Below the pieces are notes generated by a model that saw only the letters and a program-made list of their open reading frames with translations, searched no databases and had not been told where the DNA came from. DNA of 34,104 nt from Ferroacidibacillus organovorans (GTDB lineage: Bacteria; Bacillota; Bacilli; Alicyclobacillales; SLC66). The translations under genes were made by a program, and so were the position numbers. The stretch covers positions 1-34,104 of the forward strand of contig NZ_LSUQ01000029.1 in assembly GCF_001642725.1 (NCBI RefSeq), written 5' to 3'. This document shows positions 8,612 through 29,139 of the stretch, one piece after another (position 1 is the stretch's first letter; each line of letters begins with the position of its first letter).

Positions 8612-8679
8612 CCGTTTACACGCTCCTATTCTACTGAATCAGCCGTGTATGCAATCTTAGATTGTTGGAGGAACTTTCC

Positions 8680-10833
8680 ATGAGCATAGCACAAAAATTG
8701 CTACAATTGACTGGTATGATTTATTCCAGTCAAACTGTTCTTGAAATTTTGCAGGCGATGATCGATGCGATTGCCAGCGAAATCACGTCGGCAGATTTGG
8801 TCGGTTTCTTTATTCGGGAGAATGAATCGATGTTTCGAGGAAAAGTTACGAATGTTCCTGGCGATCGCGATTTTATTCAAACATTAACCATCGATTTGCG
8901 TGAGGATCCGTTTGCGCGGCAAATCGCAGAGACAAAACGTCCGGTGTTTGTCTCCAATGTGAAAAAAGAAGCGACGATTGATCCTGTCAAACAGGAAACT
9001 CTATCCATTCAATCCATTTTAGGGTTGCCTCTGCTTGTCGACCAACACATCTACGGCATGGTTTTTGCGCACAATGTCGGAAAGCCTATGCTGCTGACAC
9101 AAGAGCAACAGTCTGTCGCTGAAACGTTTATCAATGTAGCCAGTATCGCAATCCAAAACATAGAAATTTTAAAAGCCCAAAATTTGCGGAATCAATTCTC
9201 CAACCGCATGTCTGAATGCAAATCGATTAAAGAAGTGACGAAAATTTGTTCTGACTATGTAAAACAAGTATGCGACGCGCACGCGATTGGCATTCACCTG
9301 CTTGACGTTGCGACACAGCGCACGACGGCGGTCTTTGTGTCGCCAGAAGCGCGCGTCACGCCAACGGAGTTGAACGCCCTCTACCGCGCGGGATTCGATC
9401 ACATTGAGCGACACTCCATTTTTTGGGAGGTCATAGAATCCCGCGCGTGGGTCTTTATTCCAGATACGGCGCGTGACGAGCGCGTCAATTCAACACTGTG
9501 CAAGGAATTCGATATTCAAAGTCTGCTTGTGCTTCCACTCAGAGAAAAGGATACGGTCGTCGGTCTCATGACGATTCCAGGCATTGGTGCGAGCAGAGCT
9601 TACAGAACCGATGACATTGCGATCTTACAATCCATGGCGGATACAACCGGTGTGACACTCTCCAATGTCATCCACTCGAATGAATTAGAACGACTTGTAT
9701 TGACGCGAACCGAAGAGTTACGCGAACGGAACTCTCAGCTCAAATCAAGCATTTCCTACTTGGAAATTCAAGAAGCCAGACTGCGCGGTCTTGTCAATGC
9801 GATGCCACTCTCGATTGTTCTCATCGATGAAAACGGAAAATGGATTGAAGCCAATCACATTGCTATTCAATTTTTTAAACTACAAAACGTGCACTATCGA
9901 TTCAAGACAGGAAGTGAGTTGAGCGCACTTTGTGGCGCCAATCGAGAGATCATAGAACACATGATGAATCGCAAACACCATGTGTACGACAAGAATCAAC
10001 CTTGCATCTTCACGGATGAGTATAAAAAATCTGATGGATCCATACTGGTGTATAAAACATACCTTTGTCCGATGATCCCTCAGGCTGATCAACTTCAGGG
10101 CATCATTTATATTGGCGAGGATTTGACAGAACAACGCCGGATCGAAGAAGTGCTTTATCGCTCAGAAAAGCTTGCGCTTGTGGGTCAACTCGCGGCAGGT
10201 GTCGCTCACGAAATTCGCAATCCATTGACATCCTTGAGCGGTTTCATCCAGTTGCTTAAGGAGGAAGGAGCCAACCCAATGTATTGCGATGTGATGCTCC
10301 GGGAACTTGAGCGACTCAACACCATTACCAAGGAGTTCCTTTTTCTCGCAAAACCAGCGCAGCCCAACCGAACGTACAGTGATCTTAACGCGATTCTCTT
10401 CGACGTAATCCTGCTCTTTCAAGCGCAGACCATGCTTCAGCAAATTGAATTGAATGTCGACGCGGTCCGCGATGTCCCACTTCTCTTCTGTGACGAAAAC
10501 CAGATCAAACAGGTTCTTATCAATCTGCTCAACAATGCAATCGAAGCCTTGCCATCTGGCGGCAAGGTAACCTTGTCGACCTTCTTTTCGAGCGATGACA
10601 CCCACTTTGTCGTTCGCATCAAAGACAACGGAAGCGGTATCTCAAAAGATCGCCTCAAGCGAATTGGAGAACCTTTCTATACAACAAAAGAAAAAGGAAC
10701 GGGACTCGGTCTCATGACCTGTTTTAAGATCATGGAGCTTCACGGTGGAGCGCTCGACATAAAAAGTGATCTGGATCACGGCACTGTCGTCGACATTCTT
10801 CTTCCATTGGTCAAACCGTCAAAAGAGATCTAG
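8680..10833 (+). CDS. orphan sensor histidine kinase, sporulation-kinase type (GAF-GAF-PAS-HisKA-HATPase)
   Basis: This 717-residue protein has no evident membrane segment. By eye it has two GAF domains (about 15-150 and 170-335), a coiled coil (about 335-365), a PAS domain (from about 367), HisKA with phospho-acceptor H510 in GVAHEIRNPLTSLSGFIQLL, and HATPase_c with N615 in NLLNNAIEALP, DNGSGIS and GTGLGLMT. The HisKA stretch, including MLRELERLNTITKEFLFLAKP, closely resembles B. subtilis KinA/KinE-type sporulation kinases, which phosphorylate Spo0F. No response regulator is adjacent, which fits that role. The start is ATG 8680 with GGAGG at 8667-8671, rather than the TTG at 8662. The input signal and partner are inferred, not seen. 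Confidence 0.9.
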   Translation: MSIAQKLLQLTGMIYSSQTVLEILQAMIDAIASEITSADLVGFFIRENESMFRGKVTNVPGDRDFIQTLTIDLREDPFARQIAETKRPVFVSNVKKEATIDPVKQETLSIQSILGLPLLVDQHIYGMVFAHNVGKPMLLTQEQQSVAETFINVASIAIQNIEILKAQNLRNQFSNRMSECKSIKEVTKICSDYVKQVCDAHAIGIHLLDVATQRTTAVFVSPEARVTPTELNALYRAGFDHIERHSIFWEVIESRAWVFIPDTARDERVNSTLCKEFDIQSLLVLPLREKDTVVGLMTIPGIGASRAYRTDDIAILQSMADTTGVTLSNVIHSNELERLVLTRTEELRERNSQLKSSISYLEIQEARLRGLVNAMPLSIVLIDENGKWIEANHIAIQFFKLQNVHYRFKTGSELSALCGANREIIEHMMNRKHHVYDKNQPCIFTDEYKKSDGSILVYKTYLCPMIPQADQLQGIIYIGEDLTEQRRIEEVLYRSEKLALVGQLAAGVAHEIRNPLTSLSGFIQLLKEEGANPMYCDVMLRELERLNTITKEFLFLAKPAQPNRTYSDLNAILFDVILLFQAQTMLQQIELNVDAVRDVPLLFCDENQIKQVLINLLNNAIEALPSGGKVTLSTFFSSDDTHFVVRIKDNGSGISKDRLKRIGEPFYTTKEKGTGLGLMTCFKIMELHGGALDIKSDLDHGTVVDILLPLVKPSKEI

Positions 10834-22066: not shown

Positions 22067-22093
22067 AAAGCCGCAGGAGGACATTCCTGCGGC
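22067..22093 (-). terminator. terminator-like hairpin upstream of miaB
   Basis: The perfect 8-bp GC-rich stem CCGCAGGA (22072-22079)/TCCTGCGG (22086-22093) with a 6-nt loop is followed on the minus strand by C and TTTT. It could end the ATP-grasp cluster transcript or a small RNA, or act as an attenuator before miaB. The T-run is short. Confidence 0.65.
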
Positions 22094-22345: not shown

Positions 22346-23392
22346 TCAGCTTTCGGCGATGTGTTGCAGTGTGCGCAAAAGACGCATTTTTCCTTCTGTT
22401 TCAATCTTCGTCTCATCAAATTTCATGGGTTTTGCATTGGCTTCAAATAGAATAGGCGTCCCCTCCGGCGCCAGACCGAGGTCAAAGGAGAGTTCACACC
22501 AAATGCCGCCGCACCCGAGTTCAAGTGCGCGCGCGGCAGATTGAACAACCTTCTCAATCCGCGCATTCACCTCTTCACTACGCCGCCCATAAAGCTCATG
22601 TAACGTCTTGTCAAGCGCTGCCAATCGTCCGCCGTTTGGAACATGCGTCGTGATCCCGTCGCGCGGTCCAATTCGAACGCCCGCACCCGATCGCGTAAAA
22701 CCATCCTGCAAGTCACGATGCATCAGCATCCGCACGTCGACGCGACAGCCATCAATCGTTAGCGTATTCGCCTCGCGCTGCAACACAAAGCGCGCGGGGA
22801 GACTCCGCCAAAACGCCCGAACCATCAACTCATCGCGCAGTTCTGATATACGAGTACGGCCTTTTTCCTGATGGGTAATCCCGATCGAGTGAGCACCGCA
22901 CTGCAAACGCTTGATGCCCATCCCCGCTTTGCCGTGCGCTGGTTTCAAATACCACACCGGATACTCGCGAAACGCGAGAAGTGCTTCTTCTACAGTCGGC
23001 GAAACGAGTGAAACGGGAACGTTTGCGGATAATTCAGGCGCGCGTGACCAAATGCGTGCAAGTTCATCTTTATAGAGGAAGTTTGGGTTGGTGAGAATTC
23101 TCCCTTCGCGTGAAAAGCGGGTCTTAAAGGATGTTACCCAATCCGTTTGCTCCAGCCTGCGTGTCGGAATGCGGTTGTAGAGCACACGCGGCAACTGTTT
23201 CATCTGAATTTCCGTGAAACCTCCGCCAGACGCATTCCACGCATACGTTTCAAGGGTACCGTTTGGCTTGAGGCTATACACAAAAATGGGGATCCCCATG
23301 TGCTCGCCGAGGCGAACGAGTCTGCGAAAATGCATGGTGTCGCCACCCGGTTTGCCGCGCGTTACGCTTGCCGTCAGTACGCCGACACTCAT
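22346..23392 (-). CDS. YheC/YheD-type ATP-grasp protein (cluster gene 5)
   Basis: This 348-residue protein has an N-terminal domain starting SVGVLTASVTRGKPGGD and ending in LPRVLYNRIPTRR, as in YheC/YheD. An ATP-grasp domain follows: the glycine-rich ATP loop WYLKPAHGKAGMGIKRL, DVRMLMHRD, the DGITTHVPNGG segment, and metal-binding ELSFDLGLAPEGTPILFEANAKP. Metal ligands appear intact, so it should be an active carboxylate-amine ligase, but the substrate is unknown. YheC and YheD of Bacillus are linked to the spore coat. The ATG overlaps the preceding cluster gene as ATGA. It is the last gene of the cluster; a candidate promoter for the miaB unit follows within 50 bp. Confidence 0.88.
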   Translation of the reverse strand: MSVGVLTASVTRGKPGGDTMHFRRLVRLGEHMGIPIFVYSLKPNGTLETYAWNASGGGFTEIQMKQLPRVLYNRIPTRRLEQTDWVTSFKTRFSREGRILTNPNFLYKDELARIWSRAPELSANVPVSLVSPTVEEALLAFREYPVWYLKPAHGKAGMGIKRLQCGAHSIGITHQEKGRTRISELRDELMVRAFWRSLPARFVLQREANTLTIDGCRVDVRMLMHRDLQDGFTRSGAGVRIGPRDGITTHVPNGGRLAALDKTLHELYGRRSEEVNARIEKVVQSAARALELGCGGIWCELSFDLGLAPEGTPILFEANAKPMKFDETKIETEGKMRLLRTLQHIAES

Positions 23393-24606
23393 CGCGCCCG
23401 ACTCCCATACGTTTCAAAGGAAGCCGACTCTTGCGTAGTGGATTCTTCGAAAGGCGTGCCCGATTCGTTCTTAGGGAGCGACGTGTCAAGTTTTGGCTTA
23501 AGGCGATTCTGCGGGGGGCGCGTCAGACTCGCCGCAAAAGAGAGCAGCATCCTGCGCGAGGCTGCCGCTTGATTTTTTAAGGAAGGGTGGTGAAAGATGG
23601 TGCGCCCAGGTTTGGCATTTGCCTCAAACAAAACGATGCGATCATCCGCCGAGATGCCCATGTCAAGACCCAGTTCTCCAAGCGACCCTGAGACGAATCG
23701 CTCTAACGCACGTCCAATGGTGATAGCTGACTGGTCGATGCGTTCACGCATCGTCAGCGCGCGCGCGCCATACCAGCCGCGCAAGACCTGTTCTGCCGCA
23801 TCAACGTGCCCCCCACTGTATACGTGCGTGGTAATCGCATCGCGCCGCGCAATCTTTGCCGCGCTGCCAGCGATCCGCCATTGACCTTCGCCGTCCTTGC
23901 AAAGATGAACGCGAAAATCCGTAGGGCATCCCTGCACCGAACGCAGTTGTATTCCTTCTTGCAAGACGCACGTCGCGCTACGTGTGCGCGTCACGTGTTT
24001 GGCGAGCGCAGAAATACTCTCAAACGTCGTCGAAACGACGCGCCGACCGCGCCTCTCTGCCATCACGACCCGCCCCGCCTCGCGCGCGATGCGCACAATG
24101 CCTTCGCCAAAACTTCCGTCAGTCGGCTTGATAAAGACGAGTGGATAACGCTTTAGAAATTCTTTTACATCGTCTTCACTGAAATGAGACGTTGTGTCAG
24201 GTAACAATGCGGACGCCTGATCGTCTTGATGGAGCCAGATGCTTACATCGCGCTTGGAAAGGAAAGACGGATTAAAATAGGGGATCTTTCGCGCATCAAG
24301 CATTTGTTTGCACTGAACAACCGCCGATTGCGACTCGTCTTTACGCGTCCCCAAGCGATTATAGACGACAGCTGAGCGCTCAATTGTCTGTAGCACTTCG
24401 AGGAGTTGCGGTGTAGTCACGATCGCTGCGTCAAACCCAAACCACGCCGCCTCACGCTTTAGCGTTTGCAGATAGGCAGTGCGCACCTGACGCTCTCCGA
24501 TCCACACCATACACAGCGGCTTTGAAGAAAGCGTAGACGCGCGCTTCCGGTGCAAAGAATCTTCATGCCCCTCGCGCAGTGCGTCAGTATTTTTATCATA
24601 CGGCAT
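23389..24606 (-). CDS. YheC/YheD-type ATP-grasp protein (cluster gene 4)
   Basis: This 405-residue protein has an N-terminal part with YLQTLKREAAWFGFDAAIV and SAVVYNRLGTRK. Its ATP-grasp domain has FIKPTDGSFGEGIVRI, CPTDFRVHLCKDG, AITTHVYSGGHV and GELGLDMGISADDRIVLFEANAKP, with metal ligands intact. A basic, low-complexity tail of about 50 residues follows the domain and is absent in the sister genes. AAAGGG precedes the ATG by 8 nt. It starts 52 bp after the amidoligase stop; that gap holds a triple ATCAC repeat and a small hairpin. Expected chemistry is ATP-dependent amide bond formation through an acyl phosphate; acceptor and donor are unknown. Confidence 0.87.
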   Translation of the reverse strand: MPYDKNTDALREGHEDSLHRKRASTLSSKPLCMVWIGERQVRTAYLQTLKREAAWFGFDAAIVTTPQLLEVLQTIERSAVVYNRLGTRKDESQSAVVQCKQMLDARKIPYFNPSFLSKRDVSIWLHQDDQASALLPDTTSHFSEDDVKEFLKRYPLVFIKPTDGSFGEGIVRIAREAGRVVMAERRGRRVVSTTFESISALAKHVTRTRSATCVLQEGIQLRSVQGCPTDFRVHLCKDGEGQWRIAGSAAKIARRDAITTHVYSGGHVDAAEQVLRGWYGARALTMRERIDQSAITIGRALERFVSGSLGELGLDMGISADDRIVLFEANAKPGRTIFHHPSLKNQAAASRRMLLSFAASLTRPPQNRLKPKLDTSLPKNESGTPFEESTTQESASFETYGSRAR

Positions 24607-24630
24607 GAAAAAAACCCTTTCTCTTCTCTC

Positions 24631-24660
24631 ATCACATCACATCACAAGCGACAATCGCTT
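24631..24660. repeat. ATCAC tandem repeat and small hairpin in the cluster
   Basis: ATCAC occurs three times in tandem (24631-24645). Next to it AAGCGA and TCGCTT form a 6-bp stem (about 24646-24660) that includes the amidoligase stop. This is the only gap inside the cluster longer than 20 bp. The hairpin could be a weak processing or attenuation site. Confidence 0.5.
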
Positions 24661-26104
24661 AAGAAGCCGTTGTCCGTGCGCGACTTTCAGCCTGCTCACG
24701 CACACCCCACGCATCGCGCACATCCACATTCTCATCCCACACTTCGTCGCGCTCGATCATCTCAAAAACAGGGTCGATGACATCCTGGAATCGCTCATAC
24801 GCGGTCGTTCTACGCAGGGAAGAATAGATCGCTCGCGCCATAGGCAAAAGCGTGTCGCGGTCATTTTTGTAAAACGCGCGCGTCATTTCATCCTCGTAGA
24901 GTGGATGGCAGACAAGCTCCTGCTGATGGTGAATGACGATGTGCGCCAATGCGAATGCGCACATGGCGATGACCGGATCGACCAGAAAGCTGCCAGGTGT
25001 GCGGTACTCAAAACCCCCGTGCGGCTTGTGACGAACATCACCAAGAAAACCGTAGCGCGGTCTTCTGCGCACACTGCTCATCGGATCCTCAATCAGCATC
25101 AGCGGAAGCCCGACATACACATCCAGCAGATGGACCAACCTGCCGTGAAAAGGTACCCCGCTCATATGAATATGACCACCTGTCGGAAAGCGTTCAAACG
25201 GCGCACACCCGGCAATCCACTGTGGAAATTCGTGCGGGAAGCGCCCGGCGGCCTCATAGAGCGTCTGTCGCACATTCTCACACAGGCGTTCCGGCGTGGC
25301 GGCGGGTGCCGGGCGCACCTCTGCAAGCGGGTGTTTCATGCGGTCTCCACCAAAGCTCCGATCGTCACAGCCAACCACGCCTTTGAGCGGAAAGAAGCGA
25401 GACGCGAGAACCATCTTCCCCTTTTTTCCGCGTAGCATAAATTCAAGATCGGTGCCAAGTAAAATGCGCGCCGGATCGATAGCTGTTTCACGCTGTTCAA
25501 TCCACTCGTGAATCGCTTGCGCAAACACTTCGAGAATCCTTCCTTGCATGACAGGCGCCGGAGAGACGTCCAAGACAACAAGCATGCCGCGCGGTGTGAC
25601 ACCAATGCTCACAAGGGACATTTCTAGTCCCAATGCGTGTGTCGCGCGCACAGCCAATTGGCACACTTTTCCTGCCTGTTCATCAAAATCGAGCGGAATT
25701 TCTGACATCGAGTCAACCACTTCACGTACGCGCTGGCTCAGCCACACCGTTTTTTGATCGGTGCGAAAACACGCGAGGGCGCGCAGCCCAAACACCGGAA
25801 TGCGATAGTGCCTCGTCAAAGGAGCCTGCCATCCATCGCGCGCCGATCGCGCATATTTCGGCAAGCGAACCCCTGTCATTTTAAGTCGCTCGGCCATACG
25901 CTTGCGCTGACTGGCTGTTTCAAATGCAGCCCTTCGATTGATGACCCACGCGCCTGCGTCCGGCTCTTCTCCGCCCACATAGCGAATCAGTCGATCGGTC
26001 GACTGCACATGGCCACGCACCTCGCGAATCCCGATCAGTCCAGGCACACGTTTAACCAGCCGCCTGGCAGAAGCCTGCCCCTGATGGAGAAGGTATGTGC
26101 TCAT
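24659..26104 (-). CDS. COOH-NH2 amidoligase (glutamine-synthetase fold) with degenerate ATP-grasp-like N-terminus
   Basis: This 481-residue protein has a C-terminal domain (about 212-460) that matches the phiEco32-type putative amidoligase family (PF14395): GTDLEFML (217-224), EVRPAPA (262-268), FPTGGHIHMSGVPF (306-319), LIEDP (337-341), YGFLGDVR (351-358) and FEYRTPGSFL (365-374). These are glutamate/histidine-rich sites expected to bind metal-ATP. Residues about 50-205 resemble a RimK-type ATP-grasp: WVINRRAAFETASQRKRM at the start and LGLEMSLVSIGV...MLVVLDVSPAP at the end. The metal ligands are changed (LDVS where EVN is usual), and the ATP-lysine region is short, so this part is probably inactive. 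AGGGG precedes the ATG, which overlaps the upstream gene as ATGA. It probably forms amide bonds with its ATP-grasp neighbours. Confidence 0.82.
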   Translation of the reverse strand: MSTYLLHQGQASARRLVKRVPGLIGIREVRGHVQSTDRLIRYVGGEEPDAGAWVINRRAAFETASQRKRMAERLKMTGVRLPKYARSARDGWQAPLTRHYRIPVFGLRALACFRTDQKTVWLSQRVREVVDSMSEIPLDFDEQAGKVCQLAVRATHALGLEMSLVSIGVTPRGMLVVLDVSPAPVMQGRILEVFAQAIHEWIEQRETAIDPARILLGTDLEFMLRGKKGKMVLASRFFPLKGVVGCDDRSFGGDRMKHPLAEVRPAPAATPERLCENVRQTLYEAAGRFPHEFPQWIAGCAPFERFPTGGHIHMSGVPFHGRLVHLLDVYVGLPLMLIEDPMSSVRRRPRYGFLGDVRHKPHGGFEYRTPGSFLVDPVIAMCAFALAHIVIHHQQELVCHPLYEDEMTRAFYKNDRDTLLPMARAIYSSLRRTTAYERFQDVIDPVFEMIERDEVWDENVDVRDAWGVREQAESRARTTAS

Positions 26105-27267
26105 CGCGGTACCCCTTTTTGACCTCGTTTCACGCTCAGTCCCTGCGCAAAGCGCAGAGGACGCAAAAACGAGAGATCGAGCAATTTCTCCGAACCGAGT
26201 TCGGTGACAGGTGATTTGAACGGCTTGCTGTTCACCTCAATGACATAAAGATGACCGTCAGGCGCAATTCCAAAATCAAGACCGAGTTCACCGATCAACG
26301 TGTGACTCTCTTCTTCGATACAATCACAGACCTCCATCGTAAGCGTCTTGATCGTCTCGCGAAGTGACTGAGCGTTTTGAATCAGCCCGCTGCGCTCCAG
26401 ATCGCCAATGCGAAGCGCCTCACCGCCCGTGGTTAGATTGGAGACAAACTCACCGCTGGCGGCTTTTCGGGCGTATTGCTTTGTGATGCACCATATGCCT
26501 AAGCGATTTTTTTGTGCAACGACACGCAAGTCGACAGGACACCCATTAACCTGAATAAGCGTCAGACCCTGTTGGAGGATGTGGGGACGCAAAAAACGTT
26601 TTTGATAACGCGCAAACAGCTCCTCTGCGCTTTTAAACGTTTCTTCACGCAGCGCCCCTGAGCGCTCTCGCAACTGTGCGAGGCAGTCGCGATCTTTTTG
26701 AATCACCCGCAAAATTCCGATGCCAAGGCTTCCAGCCGTCGGTTTGATAAATGTGACTGGGTGTCTCATCAAAAAAGAATGCAATTGATCTGCGTCACGG
26801 AGTGGATACGTCTCTGGTAGAAAGGAAAGGAGTGCGGTACGCTTTTTTAACCATTGATCGACATCCCACTTGTCGAAATAACCGTTGTTAAACAGTTTGG
26901 CATTCTTTTGCAGATACGCGCGCAGCGGTCGAAAAGAACGCAATTGCTCGTATCTCCGGGACAAGATCTGATCGTAAATGACCAGAGGAATCGGCATTTC
27001 GCGCTGAATGACCTGGGACGTCTCGATCCCGCGCAACACATACCCCTGCAGCACATGGCGTTTTATATCGACATCCGCCGGGTCAAAGATGCACACCGCG
27101 ATGTCATGCTTTCTCCCAAGCTCAAGATATTTCATGAGGGCGAGGCCCTGTCTCCCAGCAAACTGGCCATCGACAAGTCGCACGTGCGTCATGACGCCGA
27201 CCGTGCTTCCCTTGTTGTCTGCACCTGTCAGAAATGGTTTTCGCACGCGCCTTGATGGACTCGCCAC
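26101..27267 (-). CDS. YheC/YheD-type ATP-grasp protein (cluster gene 2)
   Basis: This 388-residue protein has the family's N-terminal STVGVMTHVRLVDGQFAGRQG and PIPLVIYDQILSRR. Its ATP-grasp domain has FIKPTAGSLGIGILRV, VDLRVVAQKN, NLTTGGEALRI and GELGLDFGIAPDGHLYVIEVNSKP. Conserved Asp, Glu and Asn metal ligands are present, so activity is expected. The start is GTG at 27267 with GAGGAG 8 nt upstream. It begins 15 bp after cluster gene 1 and overlaps the amidoligase start by 4 bp, a close coupling that suggests the two act together. Confidence 0.88.
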   Translation of the reverse strand: MASPSRRVRKPFLTGADNKGSTVGVMTHVRLVDGQFAGRQGLALMKYLELGRKHDIAVCIFDPADVDIKRHVLQGYVLRGIETSQVIQREMPIPLVIYDQILSRRYEQLRSFRPLRAYLQKNAKLFNNGYFDKWDVDQWLKKRTALLSFLPETYPLRDADQLHSFLMRHPVTFIKPTAGSLGIGILRVIQKDRDCLAQLRERSGALREETFKSAEELFARYQKRFLRPHILQQGLTLIQVNGCPVDLRVVAQKNRLGIWCITKQYARKAASGEFVSNLTTGGEALRIGDLERSGLIQNAQSLRETIKTLTMEVCDCIEEESHTLIGELGLDFGIAPDGHLYVIEVNSKPFKSPVTELGSEKLLDLSFLRPLRFAQGLSVKRGQKGVPR

Positions 27268-27282
27268 ACGCCATTCTCCTCG

Positions 27283-28542
27283 TCATGATTTGATCGTTTC
27301 ATACCCTGTAATGCAAAGCGCATGCTCTAGGATTCGCGTGATGGAGTGCATGCGCAACCGCGGATCGACATTTCTGAGCATCCTCCGACCGGGGCATGGA
27401 TTGATTTCAAGGATATAGATGCGAAGATTCTGATCAAACGCGAAATCGATTCCCACTTCTCCCAACTCGCCATGCTGGCGCTGGAGCATTTCAAACAGAT
27501 CACACGCGAGAGATTCTGCACGTCGAAATTCTGCAGGCATTGCGCTCGCCTGCGACGCAGTGAGACGCGGCAGGAGGTCCTGCGCAGAAACCGCCTCACC
27601 GCCTGTGTGAAGATTGGTCGTGATCGATTGCGGGGAACCGACGCGCGCGATAAGCGCCGTCGCGACGGGTCGACCGTTTACCGCCTGCACGAGGCAGCGA
27701 AAATCAAGCGGTCGCTTATCCATGGTGTGAAGAAGCGGGATGGTCTCCTGCACGATGACACGTTCACCCACACGAAAAAAAGAAGCGTACCAAAGTGCGA
27801 GCTCAGGTAGAGAAATCTTGCTCGCAGGCGCGCCATCGCGTAGGAATTCATGGCCGCCGCGCGTACGGCGCAGGCGCGCGATACCGATGCCTTGGGTGCC
27901 ACGCGCTGGTTTCACGTAGCAGTCGTCAAATGCATCCACACACGCGATGAGCGTCTCTTCATTGTGAGCAATCTTGGTCTGTGGCACGTGTGAAGAAAAA
28001 GGAGCGCGCGTCAATACGCGTTGATGCATAACACCCTTCTCACTCATGGAGCGCGGCAGCGTGATTTGCGGCATCTCCGAGAAGACTGTTTCATCCTCGA
28101 TCAACTTCGCCTGCAGTGCGCGTGGGCGACTGGTCAATCTGCGCCACACGATGTCCGGATAAGGACACGTTTCTTCGCGCCACACACCTTCGCGAAAACG
28201 GTACCCCGAGACGACATGAACACCCGCCCGGACAGCCCCAGGCGTTATCACAAAGATGTCCATGCCTAGGCGCGCGCCAAGCCGACTGACATCTTGAAAC
28301 AGTGTCTGCTGTTGGCCAAAGCGTCGCCCCTTTGCTTTTGAGAGAGCATAAATCGCAAACGCAGGACCGAGTCGAATGGCCTGATTGCCCGTTGTCATAA
28401 AACGCATCGCGTGAGGCGGCAGGTGAAGCGCGCGGCGAATGTTTGTGTGCAAAAGAATTCTCGTCTTACGTCTGCTGCCAAAAAGATTTACCCGCTCGCA
28501 AAGTGCACCATACGCAGCATTCACCATGTGCGACTGCGTCAT
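27283..28542 (-). CDS. YheC/YheD-type ATP-grasp protein (cluster gene 1)
   Basis: This 419-residue protein is the most complete YheC/YheD-like member. It has an N-terminal extension of about 65 residues, then IRLGPAFAIYALSKAKGRRF and VVSGYRFREGVWREE...CPYPDIVWRRL. The ATP-grasp domain has YVKPARGTQGIGIARL, LDFRCLVQAVNG, ITTNLHTGGEAV and GEVGIDFAFDQNLRIYILEINPCPGR. Metal ligands are intact. The start is ATG 28542, with AGGGGG 7 nt upstream; the frame is open to 28593, but those codons follow the cotE terminator and lack a ribosome binding site. It is the first gene after cotE, so it probably belongs to the sporulation programme. Confidence 0.88.
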   Translation of the reverse strand: MTQSHMVNAAYGALCERVNLFGSRRKTRILLHTNIRRALHLPPHAMRFMTTGNQAIRLGPAFAIYALSKAKGRRFGQQQTLFQDVSRLGARLGMDIFVITPGAVRAGVHVVSGYRFREGVWREETCPYPDIVWRRLTSRPRALQAKLIEDETVFSEMPQITLPRSMSEKGVMHQRVLTRAPFSSHVPQTKIAHNEETLIACVDAFDDCYVKPARGTQGIGIARLRRTRGGHEFLRDGAPASKISLPELALWYASFFRVGERVIVQETIPLLHTMDKRPLDFRCLVQAVNGRPVATALIARVGSPQSITTNLHTGGEAVSAQDLLPRLTASQASAMPAEFRRAESLACDLFEMLQRQHGELGEVGIDFAFDQNLRIYILEINPCPGRRMLRNVDPRLRMHSITRILEHALCITGYETIKS

Positions 28543-28579: not shown

Positions 28580-28600
28580 AAAAAAGGGCGCATCGCGCCC
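28580..28600 (-). terminator. intrinsic terminator after cotE
   Basis: GGGCGC (28586-28591)/GCGCCC (28595-28600) form a 6-bp GC stem with a 3-nt loop. Six T follow on the minus strand (28585-28580). It lies 21 bp past the cotE stop and only 38 bp before the first ATP-grasp start. No obvious promoter fits between, so partial read-through from cotE may feed the cluster. Confidence 0.88.
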
Positions 28601-28620
28601 CCGCACTACATGAAGTTCTA

Positions 28621-29139
28621 TTACAGGCTTGACTCTTCAAGCGAGCTGCTCTCAATGTCAAAGCTGTCTTTTTTATGGGAGGGGGTCATCGTCAATACCC
28701 ACACCTTCGTCGGCCCGATCACTTCGACAAGCCATTCCGTTTCGACGCGAACCAAGATCTCGGAGTGGTCATCTACAATCGTCGCGTCGACACAATTGGG
28801 TTGCTGCTTGACTTTGACGTGCACAGACAAATCGTCTCGTGCGCAATTTGGGTCAAGCCCTTGCAAGCTGATTTGCTCAACGTAGGAAACCGTATCTTTT
28901 GCAACCGCGGTTTCACTGTTGTCGTTATACGAATACCAAACGTTCGTATCAAAACGCCCGCGAACCTCGACCGTCTCGTCGATCAGAATCCCTTCGCACG
29001 AGTGATTCATCACCCAGCAACCGCCGATGGTGGTAGGACGATTCGCCGTGTGGATGGTATAGGTATGCTGACTGTACTTACTACCGCGACCACAAACCGC
29101 ATCTGTAATGATTTCGCGGTATTCATCTCGTGAGTGCAC
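28621..29139 (-). CDS. cotE: outer spore coat morphogenetic protein CotE
   Basis: This 172-residue protein organises the outer coat layer of the endospore in Bacillus (family knowledge). Recognisable segments are EYREIITDAVCGRGSKYSQ, GGCWVMNHSC, FDTNVWYSYNDNSETAV, the KQQPNCVDATI block and a WLVEVIGPTKVWV near the C-terminus. It is acidic and serine-rich at the end, as usual. Length is near B. subtilis CotE (181). The start is GTG at 29139, 7 nt after AAGGAGGT (29148-29155). In Bacillus cotE precedes mutS; here it precedes the ATP-grasp/amidoligase cluster. Confidence 0.96.
   Translation of the reverse strand: MHSRDEYREIITDAVCGRGSKYSQHTYTIHTANRPTTIGGCWVMNHSCEGILIDETVEVRGRFDTNVWYSYNDNSETAVAKDTVSYVEQISLQGLDPNCARDDLSVHVKVKQQPNCVDATIVDDHSEILVRVETEWLVEVIGPTKVWVLTMTPSHKKDSFDIESSSLEESSL

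Follow-up and report, generated by a model that had tools for sequence, protein, structure and literature searches.

A ligase gene cluster follows cotE

The window analyzed here is the whole of a 34,104-nucleotide stretch of Ferroacidibacillus organovorans DNA (contig NZ_LSUQ01000029.1 of assembly GCF_001642725.1), and our subject is a set of five ligase genes that follows cotE, the gene of an outer spore coat morphogenetic protein. On the minus strand, the genes run in the order rny, ymdB, M19 dipeptidase, PHP protein, cotE, AG1, AG2, AMD, AG3, AG4, miaB, mutS, and mutL, where rny, mutS, and mutL are what we take those genes to be. AMD encodes an amidoligase, and AG1 to AG4 encode ATP-grasp ligases of the YheC/YheD (YheC/D) type. 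The features of the region are as follows.

28621..29139, minus strand: cotE, outer spore coat morphogenetic protein, 172 amino acids (PF10628, E = 1.3e-55)
28669..28674, minus strand: codons of lysines K156-K157 in the CotE tail, a candidate acceptor site (read from the sequence; lysine in 95/95 AMD-positive versus 6/51 AMD-negative genomes)
28584..28602, minus strand: terminator-like hairpin between cotE and the ligase genes (consensus scan; recurs in the sister species, L056)
27283..28542, minus strand: AG1, YheC/D-type ATP-grasp ligase (PF14398, E = 1e-43; reading frame open from 28593)
26101..27267, minus strand: AG2, YheC/D-type ATP-grasp ligase (PF14398, E = 8.3e-65; predicted fold nearest LysX/ArgX/RimK)
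24659..26104, minus strand: AMD, amidoligase (COOH-NH2 ligase), 481 amino acids (PF14395, E = 2.1e-91; catalytic residues kept)
25484..26104, minus strand: AMD residues 1-207, predicted degenerate RimK-like ATP-grasp domain (model; hhalign)
24692..25483, minus strand: AMD residues 208-471, predicted GCS/YbdK/PafA-like catalytic domain (structure comparison of the model)
23389..24606, minus strand: AG3, YheC/D-type ATP-grasp ligase (PF14398, E = 2.4e-67)
22346..23392, minus strand: AG4, YheC/D-type ATP-grasp ligase (PF14398, E = 2.6e-41)

An earlier reading made without database searches (the sequence-only reading) had described four YheC/D-type ATP-grasp ligases and one amidoligase, head to tail near cotE, and Pfam confirmed this with four matches to PF14398 and with matches to PF14395 and PF10628. 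The 4-bp overlaps and gaps of at most 52 bp described there agree with the open reading frame (ORF) coordinates, which put 15 bp between AG1 and AG2 and 52 bp between AMD and AG3, with 4-bp overlaps at the AG2-AMD and AG3-AG4 junctions. The host genome, a draft in 98 contigs totaling 3.03 Mb, has five places that match PF14398, four of them inside the window.

The amidoligase occurs with CotE throughout the class

A sample of 398 genomes from the window's class was searched with profiles for PF14395 and CotE; the sporulation genes covered by our searches were CotE and Tgl. PF14395 was found in 203 of the 398 genomes and CotE in 269. All 203 AMD-positive genomes contained CotE, 66 genomes contained CotE only, and 129 contained neither. 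The link to CotE drawn by the sequence-only reading is borne out by this co-occurrence and by cotE-linked clusters that recur outside the miaB-mutS locus, described below. Regions around AMD were fetched from the better-scoring PF14395 places, about one per genus (n = 80; 81 with the window), some of them stopping early at contig ends. In 79 of the 81 regions, cotE lay upstream of AMD in the same orientation; the other two are L095, with a fused paralogue, and L123, whose genome carries cotE elsewhere (L269). ATP-grasp genes within 6.5 kb of AMD numbered three or four in 29 regions and two in one region, and there were none in 51. The window contains the full form of the cluster, a short form, cotE-AMD-mutS, occurs in many lineages, and the window's set is not unique. 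Since AMD so often has no ATP-grasp gene nearby, AMD is the core partner of CotE.

At least four YheC/D genes were present in 191 of 197 AMD-positive genomes versus 12 of 64 genomes with CotE and no AMD; because about six candidates were scored in each genome, high counts are lower bounds, and by assumption unlisted genomes were scored zero and six genomes were taken as unsampled. A search of named genomes with a single protein gave no match, and the alignment-based search gave the best 80 of 517 confirmed relatives. Named relatives bearing AMD are Alicyclobacillus, Tumebacillus, Paenibacillus, Aneurinibacillus, Thermoactinomyces, and others.

In the AMD-negative regions fetched, cotE was mostly followed directly by mutS, and the miaB-cotE-mutS region is conserved in the class with or without AMD. 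The AMD-negative genomes of the class are taken for Bacillales because the control, Bacillus subtilis, has CotE and no AMD. One genome (G344; L262 and L314) contains broken pieces of AMD between cotE and mutS and retains the CotE tail lysine described below; this is probably AMD loss in progress. Two other genomes (G084 and G328; family f5, genus g57) were outside both the AMD-positive and the CotE-positive lists, unlike most of the listed f5 genomes, and had four YheC/D genes each.

Clusters of cotE and the amidoligase outside the class

Thermincola (L201 and L210) and Syntrophomonas (L208) are clostridia, and 159 genomes were sampled from the phylum of the Thermincola genome of L201 (G407). 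PF14395 was found in 20 of these, CotE above the cut-off in 22, and both in 15, so that 15 of the 20 AMD-positive genomes had CotE. Three genomes (G432, G476, and G549) are already in the class sample, as their identical places show; leaving them aside gives 18, 19, and 13. The remaining genomes with AMD or CotE were placed outside Bacilli because their CotE sequences are distant (E values of 1e-44 to 1e-24). Pfam confirmed three CotEs outside the class, two in L201 and one in L215.

Clusters in this sample comprise cotE, three or four ATP-grasp genes, and AMD in several orders, mostly without miaB or mutS in the same stretch. Two cotE genes followed by four ATP-grasp genes and AMD were found at L201, L210, L345, L352, and L356, and at L354 with one ATP-grasp frame split. 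The order cotE, ATP-grasp, AMD, and three further ATP-grasp genes was found at L215, L357, L362, and L363, and other orders were found at L353, L355, L358, and L359. Since clusters in Clostridia occur without miaB-mutS surroundings, the link between CotE and AMD is not only inherited synteny. A 2012 survey saw no CotE in clostridia (PMC3533761); the clusters found here extend the range of CotE to clostridial genomes.

Five AMD-positive genomes of this sample gave no CotE match, and at their loci AMD stands with at least one ATP-grasp gene (L346, L347, L349, L351, and L360) or with no separate ATP-grasp gene (L348, L350, and L361). At L206 and L208, an ATP-grasp gene is paired with AMD in genomes without CotE, and at both the opposite-strand neighbor of the pair (L206:8465-9253 and L208:8273-9064) encodes an AstE/M99/M14-like carboxypeptidase, perhaps with a signal peptide as judged by eye. 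At L358, a gene for a CotE-like protein (8640-9218, read in the direction of AMD) is flanked by two amidoligase genes and encodes a tail without lysine.

A candidate acceptor lysine in the CotE tail

CotE has an acidic C-terminal tail in all three groups compared. The tails of AMD-positive genomes open with a lysine among mostly acidic neighbors (DDK, EDK, KKD), whereas those of AMD-negative genomes mostly have tryptophan there (tail residues 7-22; 42/51 versus 10/99 positive rows). The tails examined came from 98 of the 203 AMD-positive genomes and from 51 of the 66 genomes with CotE and no AMD; the 99 positive rows include G198, a 91% complete draft in which AMD was not found and in which cotE is followed by an ATP-grasp gene. 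In an eight-residue window anchored on the alignment, lysine was present in 95 of 95 AMD-positive genomes versus 6 of 51 AMD-negative genomes. Four genomes were left out of this comparison: G344 (decaying AMD; lysine), G380 (fused paralogue only; no lysine in the window), G198 (lysine), and G121 (frameshifted tail; no lysine). The only AMD of G380 is a fusion with an ATP-grasp domain located away from cotE. Before rows were dropped, lysine was present within tail residues 7-20 in 97 of the 99 positive rows and 12 of the 51 negative rows. One AMD-negative genome, G270, had no CotE ORF in its short locus.

A control scan along CotE covered 161 start positions, windows of 1, 4, 8, and 14 residues, and all 20 residue types, with a filter of at least 97% in AMD-positive and at most 35% in AMD-negative genomes. 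Twelve overlapping features passed, and every one was the tail lysine. AMD-positive tails mostly carry a single lysine (65 of 95; two in 26 and three in 4), with neighbors that are mostly aspartate or glutamate. Regular-expression tail motifs had left about 20 tails unparsed, with 14 AMD-positive tails scored negative and 11 AMD-negative tails scored positive; they were dropped and replaced by the alignment-anchored windows. In a check made after the motif had been noted, the AMD-positive families f7, f16, and f26 carried it, as did f44, in which AMD was not found; in the AMD-negative family f4, the acidic stretch of CotE ends in tryptophan.

Outside the class, the D-K-type tail of L215 was seen before the motif was noted, and those of six phylum-sample CotEs (L353, L355, L357, L359, L362, and L363) were seen afterwards. 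Among 20 CotEs in AMD clusters (the phylum sample plus L201, L210, and L215), seven have D-K-type tails and five have D-L-K in a longer tail. The tail lysine was absent from five CotE loci of four AMD-negative phylum-sample genomes (two identical in the part shown), and one lysine-free AMD-negative tail in this sample runs to more than 50 mostly acidic residues. Two AMD-negative genomes with borderline CotE matches (G453 and G486; 26.9 and 25.4 bits) were excluded because their ends, though containing lysines, are unlike CotE tails, and L364, from a class-sample genome (AMD-negative, lysine present), was not recounted. On a tree of the CotE core, there were three independent pairs, and 0 of 200 pairings opposed the trend. 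We regard the tail-lysine pattern as a lead and not as proof.

Predicted folds and active sites of the ligases

AMD matched PF14395 with 306 bits over 254 of 254 positions (curated Pfam cut-off, 25 bits). Structure models were made of AMD and AG2, with predicted local distance difference test (pLDDT) scores of 91.9 and 87.3, respectively. Pfam names no domain in the N-terminal part of AMD, about 207 residues long. In the model, residues 1-207 resemble RimK (Z = 16.6; 189 residues aligned; root mean square deviation [rmsd], 3.2), and profile comparison by hhalign matched this domain to ATP-grasps at the metal-ligand motif (probability, 84; E = 7.4e-6; 43 columns). AMD reads LDVSPAP where ATP-grasps have the E-x-N metal-ligand motif, and the first domain is therefore probably inactive as an ATP-grasp. 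Residues 208-471 gave Z scores of 16.5 to 1tt4, 15.9 to YbdK, 15.6 to plant glutamate-cysteine ligase (GCL), and 14.3 to 14.4 to PafA/Dop, the ligase and the depupylase of Pup. The PafA match (4bjr; Z = 14.3; 248 residues; rmsd, 3.7) reflects a fold shared with GCS and YbdK. The prediction for AMD is thus a two-domain fusion, in which a degenerate RimK-like ATP-grasp domain is followed by a glutamate-cysteine-ligase/PafA-like domain. Against sequences of solved structures, the AMD profile found four matches, with E values of 0.048 to 0.14, which were taken for chance.

Residues D219, E221, E262, and R264 of AMD are kept in all 136 aligned rows (127/127 cellular and 9/9 viral), and H311 and H313 are kept in 125 of the 127 cellular rows. 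Distant PF14395-like proteins are also encoded on 15 viral contigs (L216-L230), with 24 to 35% identity in the best segment and mostly the catalytic domain only; L217, L218, and L220 have two or three such matches each, some of them weak.

All four ATP-grasp proteins of the window matched PF14398 at 142 to 227 bits (curated Pfam cut-off, 26.8 bits). Residues K133, K175, D246, R248, D331, E344, and N346 (AG2 numbering) are invariant in 19 aligned YheC/D sequences, including those of the window; among these residues are the ATP-grasp lysine and the D/E/N metal ligands. The claim of the sequence-only reading that the ATP-grasp proteins keep their metal ligands holds because of this invariance. 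The AG2 model is nearest in fold to LysX (Z = 23.0), ArgX, and RimK (both 22.6), and it also matches TTLL11 (19.8), TTLL6 (19 to 20), and ATP-grasp macrocyclases of ribosomally synthesized and posttranslationally modified peptides (RiPPs) (about 18.5). LysX/ArgX, RimK, and TTLL enzymes attach amino acids either to the acidic tails of proteins or to an acidic-tailed carrier. The cut-off of TIGR00768 (NCBIfam rimK_fam; 143.4 bits) was not reached by AG1 (29.7 bits) or AG3 (19.5 bits), and AG2 and AG4 were not listed; a RimK-like mode of action for these proteins is suggested by fold, through the AG2 model.

Three proteins of 880 to 924 amino acids combine a PF14395-type amidoligase in the N-terminal half with a complete YheC/D-type ATP-grasp ligase in the C-terminal half (L303:850-3576, L095:8948-11590, and L348:7564-10338). 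The fetched stretches contain no cotE gene. These fusions support joint work of the two enzymes, though they are located away from cotE.

Proposed role of the cluster and alternative explanations

The gene set, the kept active sites, the linkage to CotE, the tail-lysine pattern, the fusions, and, in the models, the predicted folds lead us to a tentative proposal, which we hold at somewhat less than an even chance: the cluster would be a spore-coat protein-modification system with CotE as its main target, in which AMD would place an amide bond on the tail lysine, with the ATP-grasp ligases building or lengthening a chain or glutamylating the tail. Enzymes of the AMD fold group activate the gamma-carboxylate of glutamate and join it to an amine, and PafA uses a protein lysine. 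The tail lysine, in the product of the neighboring gene, would be the natural amine. AMD would activate a carboxylate with ATP and join it to the epsilon-amine of the lysine that opens the acidic tail of CotE, and the added group would probably be gamma-glutamyl. The RimK/LysX-like ATP-grasp ligases would build or lengthen the amino-acid chain on that lysine, or else add glutamate to the acidic tail itself, while the degenerate domain of AMD would probably bind substrate or the partner ligases. Here we infer activity, substrate, bond type, order of steps, and expression in the mother cell. The sequence-only reading had offered the decoration of coat proteins such as CotE as one option; that option has gained a candidate site, and the center of the system has shifted to AMD as the core partner.

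Several findings weigh against this proposal. The sequence-only reading had named the same cluster in non-sporulating relatives without cotE as a finding against itself, and this was seen in part, since 5 of the 20 AMD-positive phylum-sample genomes have no CotE match. In the window itself, a terminator-like hairpin parts cotE from the ligase genes. Of the 20 CotEs in AMD clusters outside the class, eight lack an acid-flanked tail lysine (six tails of 4 to 11 residues and the second copies at L345 and L358). The tail-lysine rule was picked after the tails had been inspected, and under a less strict rule, which accepts any lysine flanked by acids within the first 40 residues of the tail, the contrast becomes 91/95 versus 25/51. 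Other CotE columns also split the two groups, the best being K81 (71/95 versus 0/51). On a MutS tree (FastTree, local support), the AMD-negative rows form one clade apart from G344, so AMD loss and lysine loss are about one shared event; AMD state changes twice on this tree, with one loss covering the AMD-negative clade and one decaying copy. Tests on independent pairs had two to three pairs, which puts significance out of reach.

The ligases might instead make a free peptide or poly-amino-acid for the coat or the mother cell by joining several monomers one after another, with CotE as a neighbor or anchor and not a substrate. We consider this unlikely, although the five AMD-positive genomes without CotE speak for it, as does the fold of the second AMD domain, which resembles YbdK and GCS; these enzymes act on small molecules. 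Linked peptide ligases commonly perform consecutive ligation steps in building metabolites and storage peptides, and linkage of ATP-grasp genes to COOH-NH2 ligases has precedent (PMC4431377). Free-peptide synthesis leaves unexplained the CotE tail lysine that tracks AMD, and in many genomes AMD stands with cotE and no other ligase alongside. The passenger explanation, in which the cluster lies near cotE merely through the conserved miaB-cotE-mutS region, draws on the conservation of that region in the class regardless of AMD. It is very improbable and was largely rejected, since CotE and AMD are clustered elsewhere in several orders without miaB or mutS nearby, and 0 of 203 AMD-positive class genomes lack CotE.

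Two further alternatives keep AMD and CotE together, and each seems improbable to us. AMD could cross-link CotE molecules with one another or with other coat proteins by joining lysine to a glutamate or aspartate side chain, in the manner of a transglutaminase or of graspetides, with no free amino acid involved. The tails mostly carry one lysine among many acids, the structural matches include PafA (Z = 14.3), an isopeptide-forming protein ligase, and RiPP macrocyclases match AG2 (Z about 18.5), all of which would suit such cross-linking. Tgl matches in 0 of 39 AMD-positive genomes of the window's family (f1) and the order's other family (f2) point the same way, but across the class Tgl and AMD coexist (75/203 AMD-positive genomes and 31/66 genomes with CotE and no AMD). 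With no mutual exclusion, Tgl was rejected as an alternative to AMD. Cross-linking also gives the four ATP-grasp ligases no clear task. The other alternative, similarly improbable, is that the tail lysine serves to dock AMD or another coat protein and does not act as an acceptor. A lysine within an acidic tail can serve recognition alone, and in B. subtilis CotH binding needs the CotE C terminus, with an added acidic end residue rescuing truncated CotE (PMC4618286). However, a lysine kept beside AMD across such distances fits chemistry at least equally well.

A broader form of the modification proposal is doubtful. CotE would be the substrate of its own ATP-driven ligase in many spore formers, carrying a gamma-glutamyl or oligo-amino-acid chain that YheC/D proteins extend, to give a polymer-coated scaffold; this system would be ancestral and lost in the B. 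subtilis line. If true, many spore formers modify the hub of the outer coat by an undescribed ATP-driven protein modification, and loss in the B. subtilis line would explain how the system escaped notice. Spore-coat assembly has been studied mostly in B. subtilis. The question of what YheC/D and PF14395 proteins do would be reduced to a question about one peptide of CotE.

Start sites and regulatory signals

The first ATG of AG1 (28593) falls within the terminator-like hairpin at 28602-28584, which is common to the sister species. Because of this overlap, the AG1 start at 28542, the coordinate given by the sequence-only reading, is more likely than 28593. A nine-pair terminator-like hairpin (window positions 22070-22093) overlaps the start of the miaB ORF (22084), and the true miaB start is for this reason probably further down. 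In the consensus scan, terminator-like sites were not enriched in the region (10 versus 9.2 in shuffles). A scan for sigma-70-type promoters, whose reach does not include sigma-E or sigma-K sites, found one site, fewer than in shuffles.

Comparison with known systems

According to Pfam notes, PF14395 has YheC/D and CotE as neighbors and a predicted role in coat modification; Iyer et al. 2009 (Mol Biosyst 5:1636) reportedly gave the same neighborhood and prediction. In a search of open-licence papers by titles and abstract openings, we recognized no biochemical study of the cluster. Our additions are the CotE tail lysine, the degenerate ATP-grasp domain, the co-occurrence counts, the clostridial clusters, and the fusions, and the proposals of site and substrate are new and unproven; some of these additions may already stand in Iyer et al. 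2009.

The window resembles B. subtilis in its PF14398 matches and differs in that the B. subtilis control has CotE and no PF14395 match. In B. subtilis, yheC and yheD belong to the sigma-E regulon and are stimulated by SpoIIID (PMC517825), and YheD is listed with the SpoIVA-interacting base-layer proteins (PMC3533761). AG2 is alike in predicted fold to RimK, LysX-ArgX, and TTLL enzymes; the window's proteins differ from the RimK family in that AG1 and AG3 score far below the TIGR00768 cut-off and in that most AMD-positive genomes contain at least four paralogues. AMD residues 208-471 share a predicted fold (Z scores of 14 to 16.5) and conserved acids, histidines, and arginines with PafA/Dop, GCL, and YbdK. 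AMD differs from these enzymes by its extra N-terminal degenerate ATP-grasp domain and has no convincing sequence relation to solved chains. Tgl forms epsilon-(gamma-glutamyl)lysine bonds in spore coats via thiolester chemistry on a catalytic cysteine (PMC6490927). This is the same bond as that proposed for AMD, and Tgl occurs both with and without AMD.

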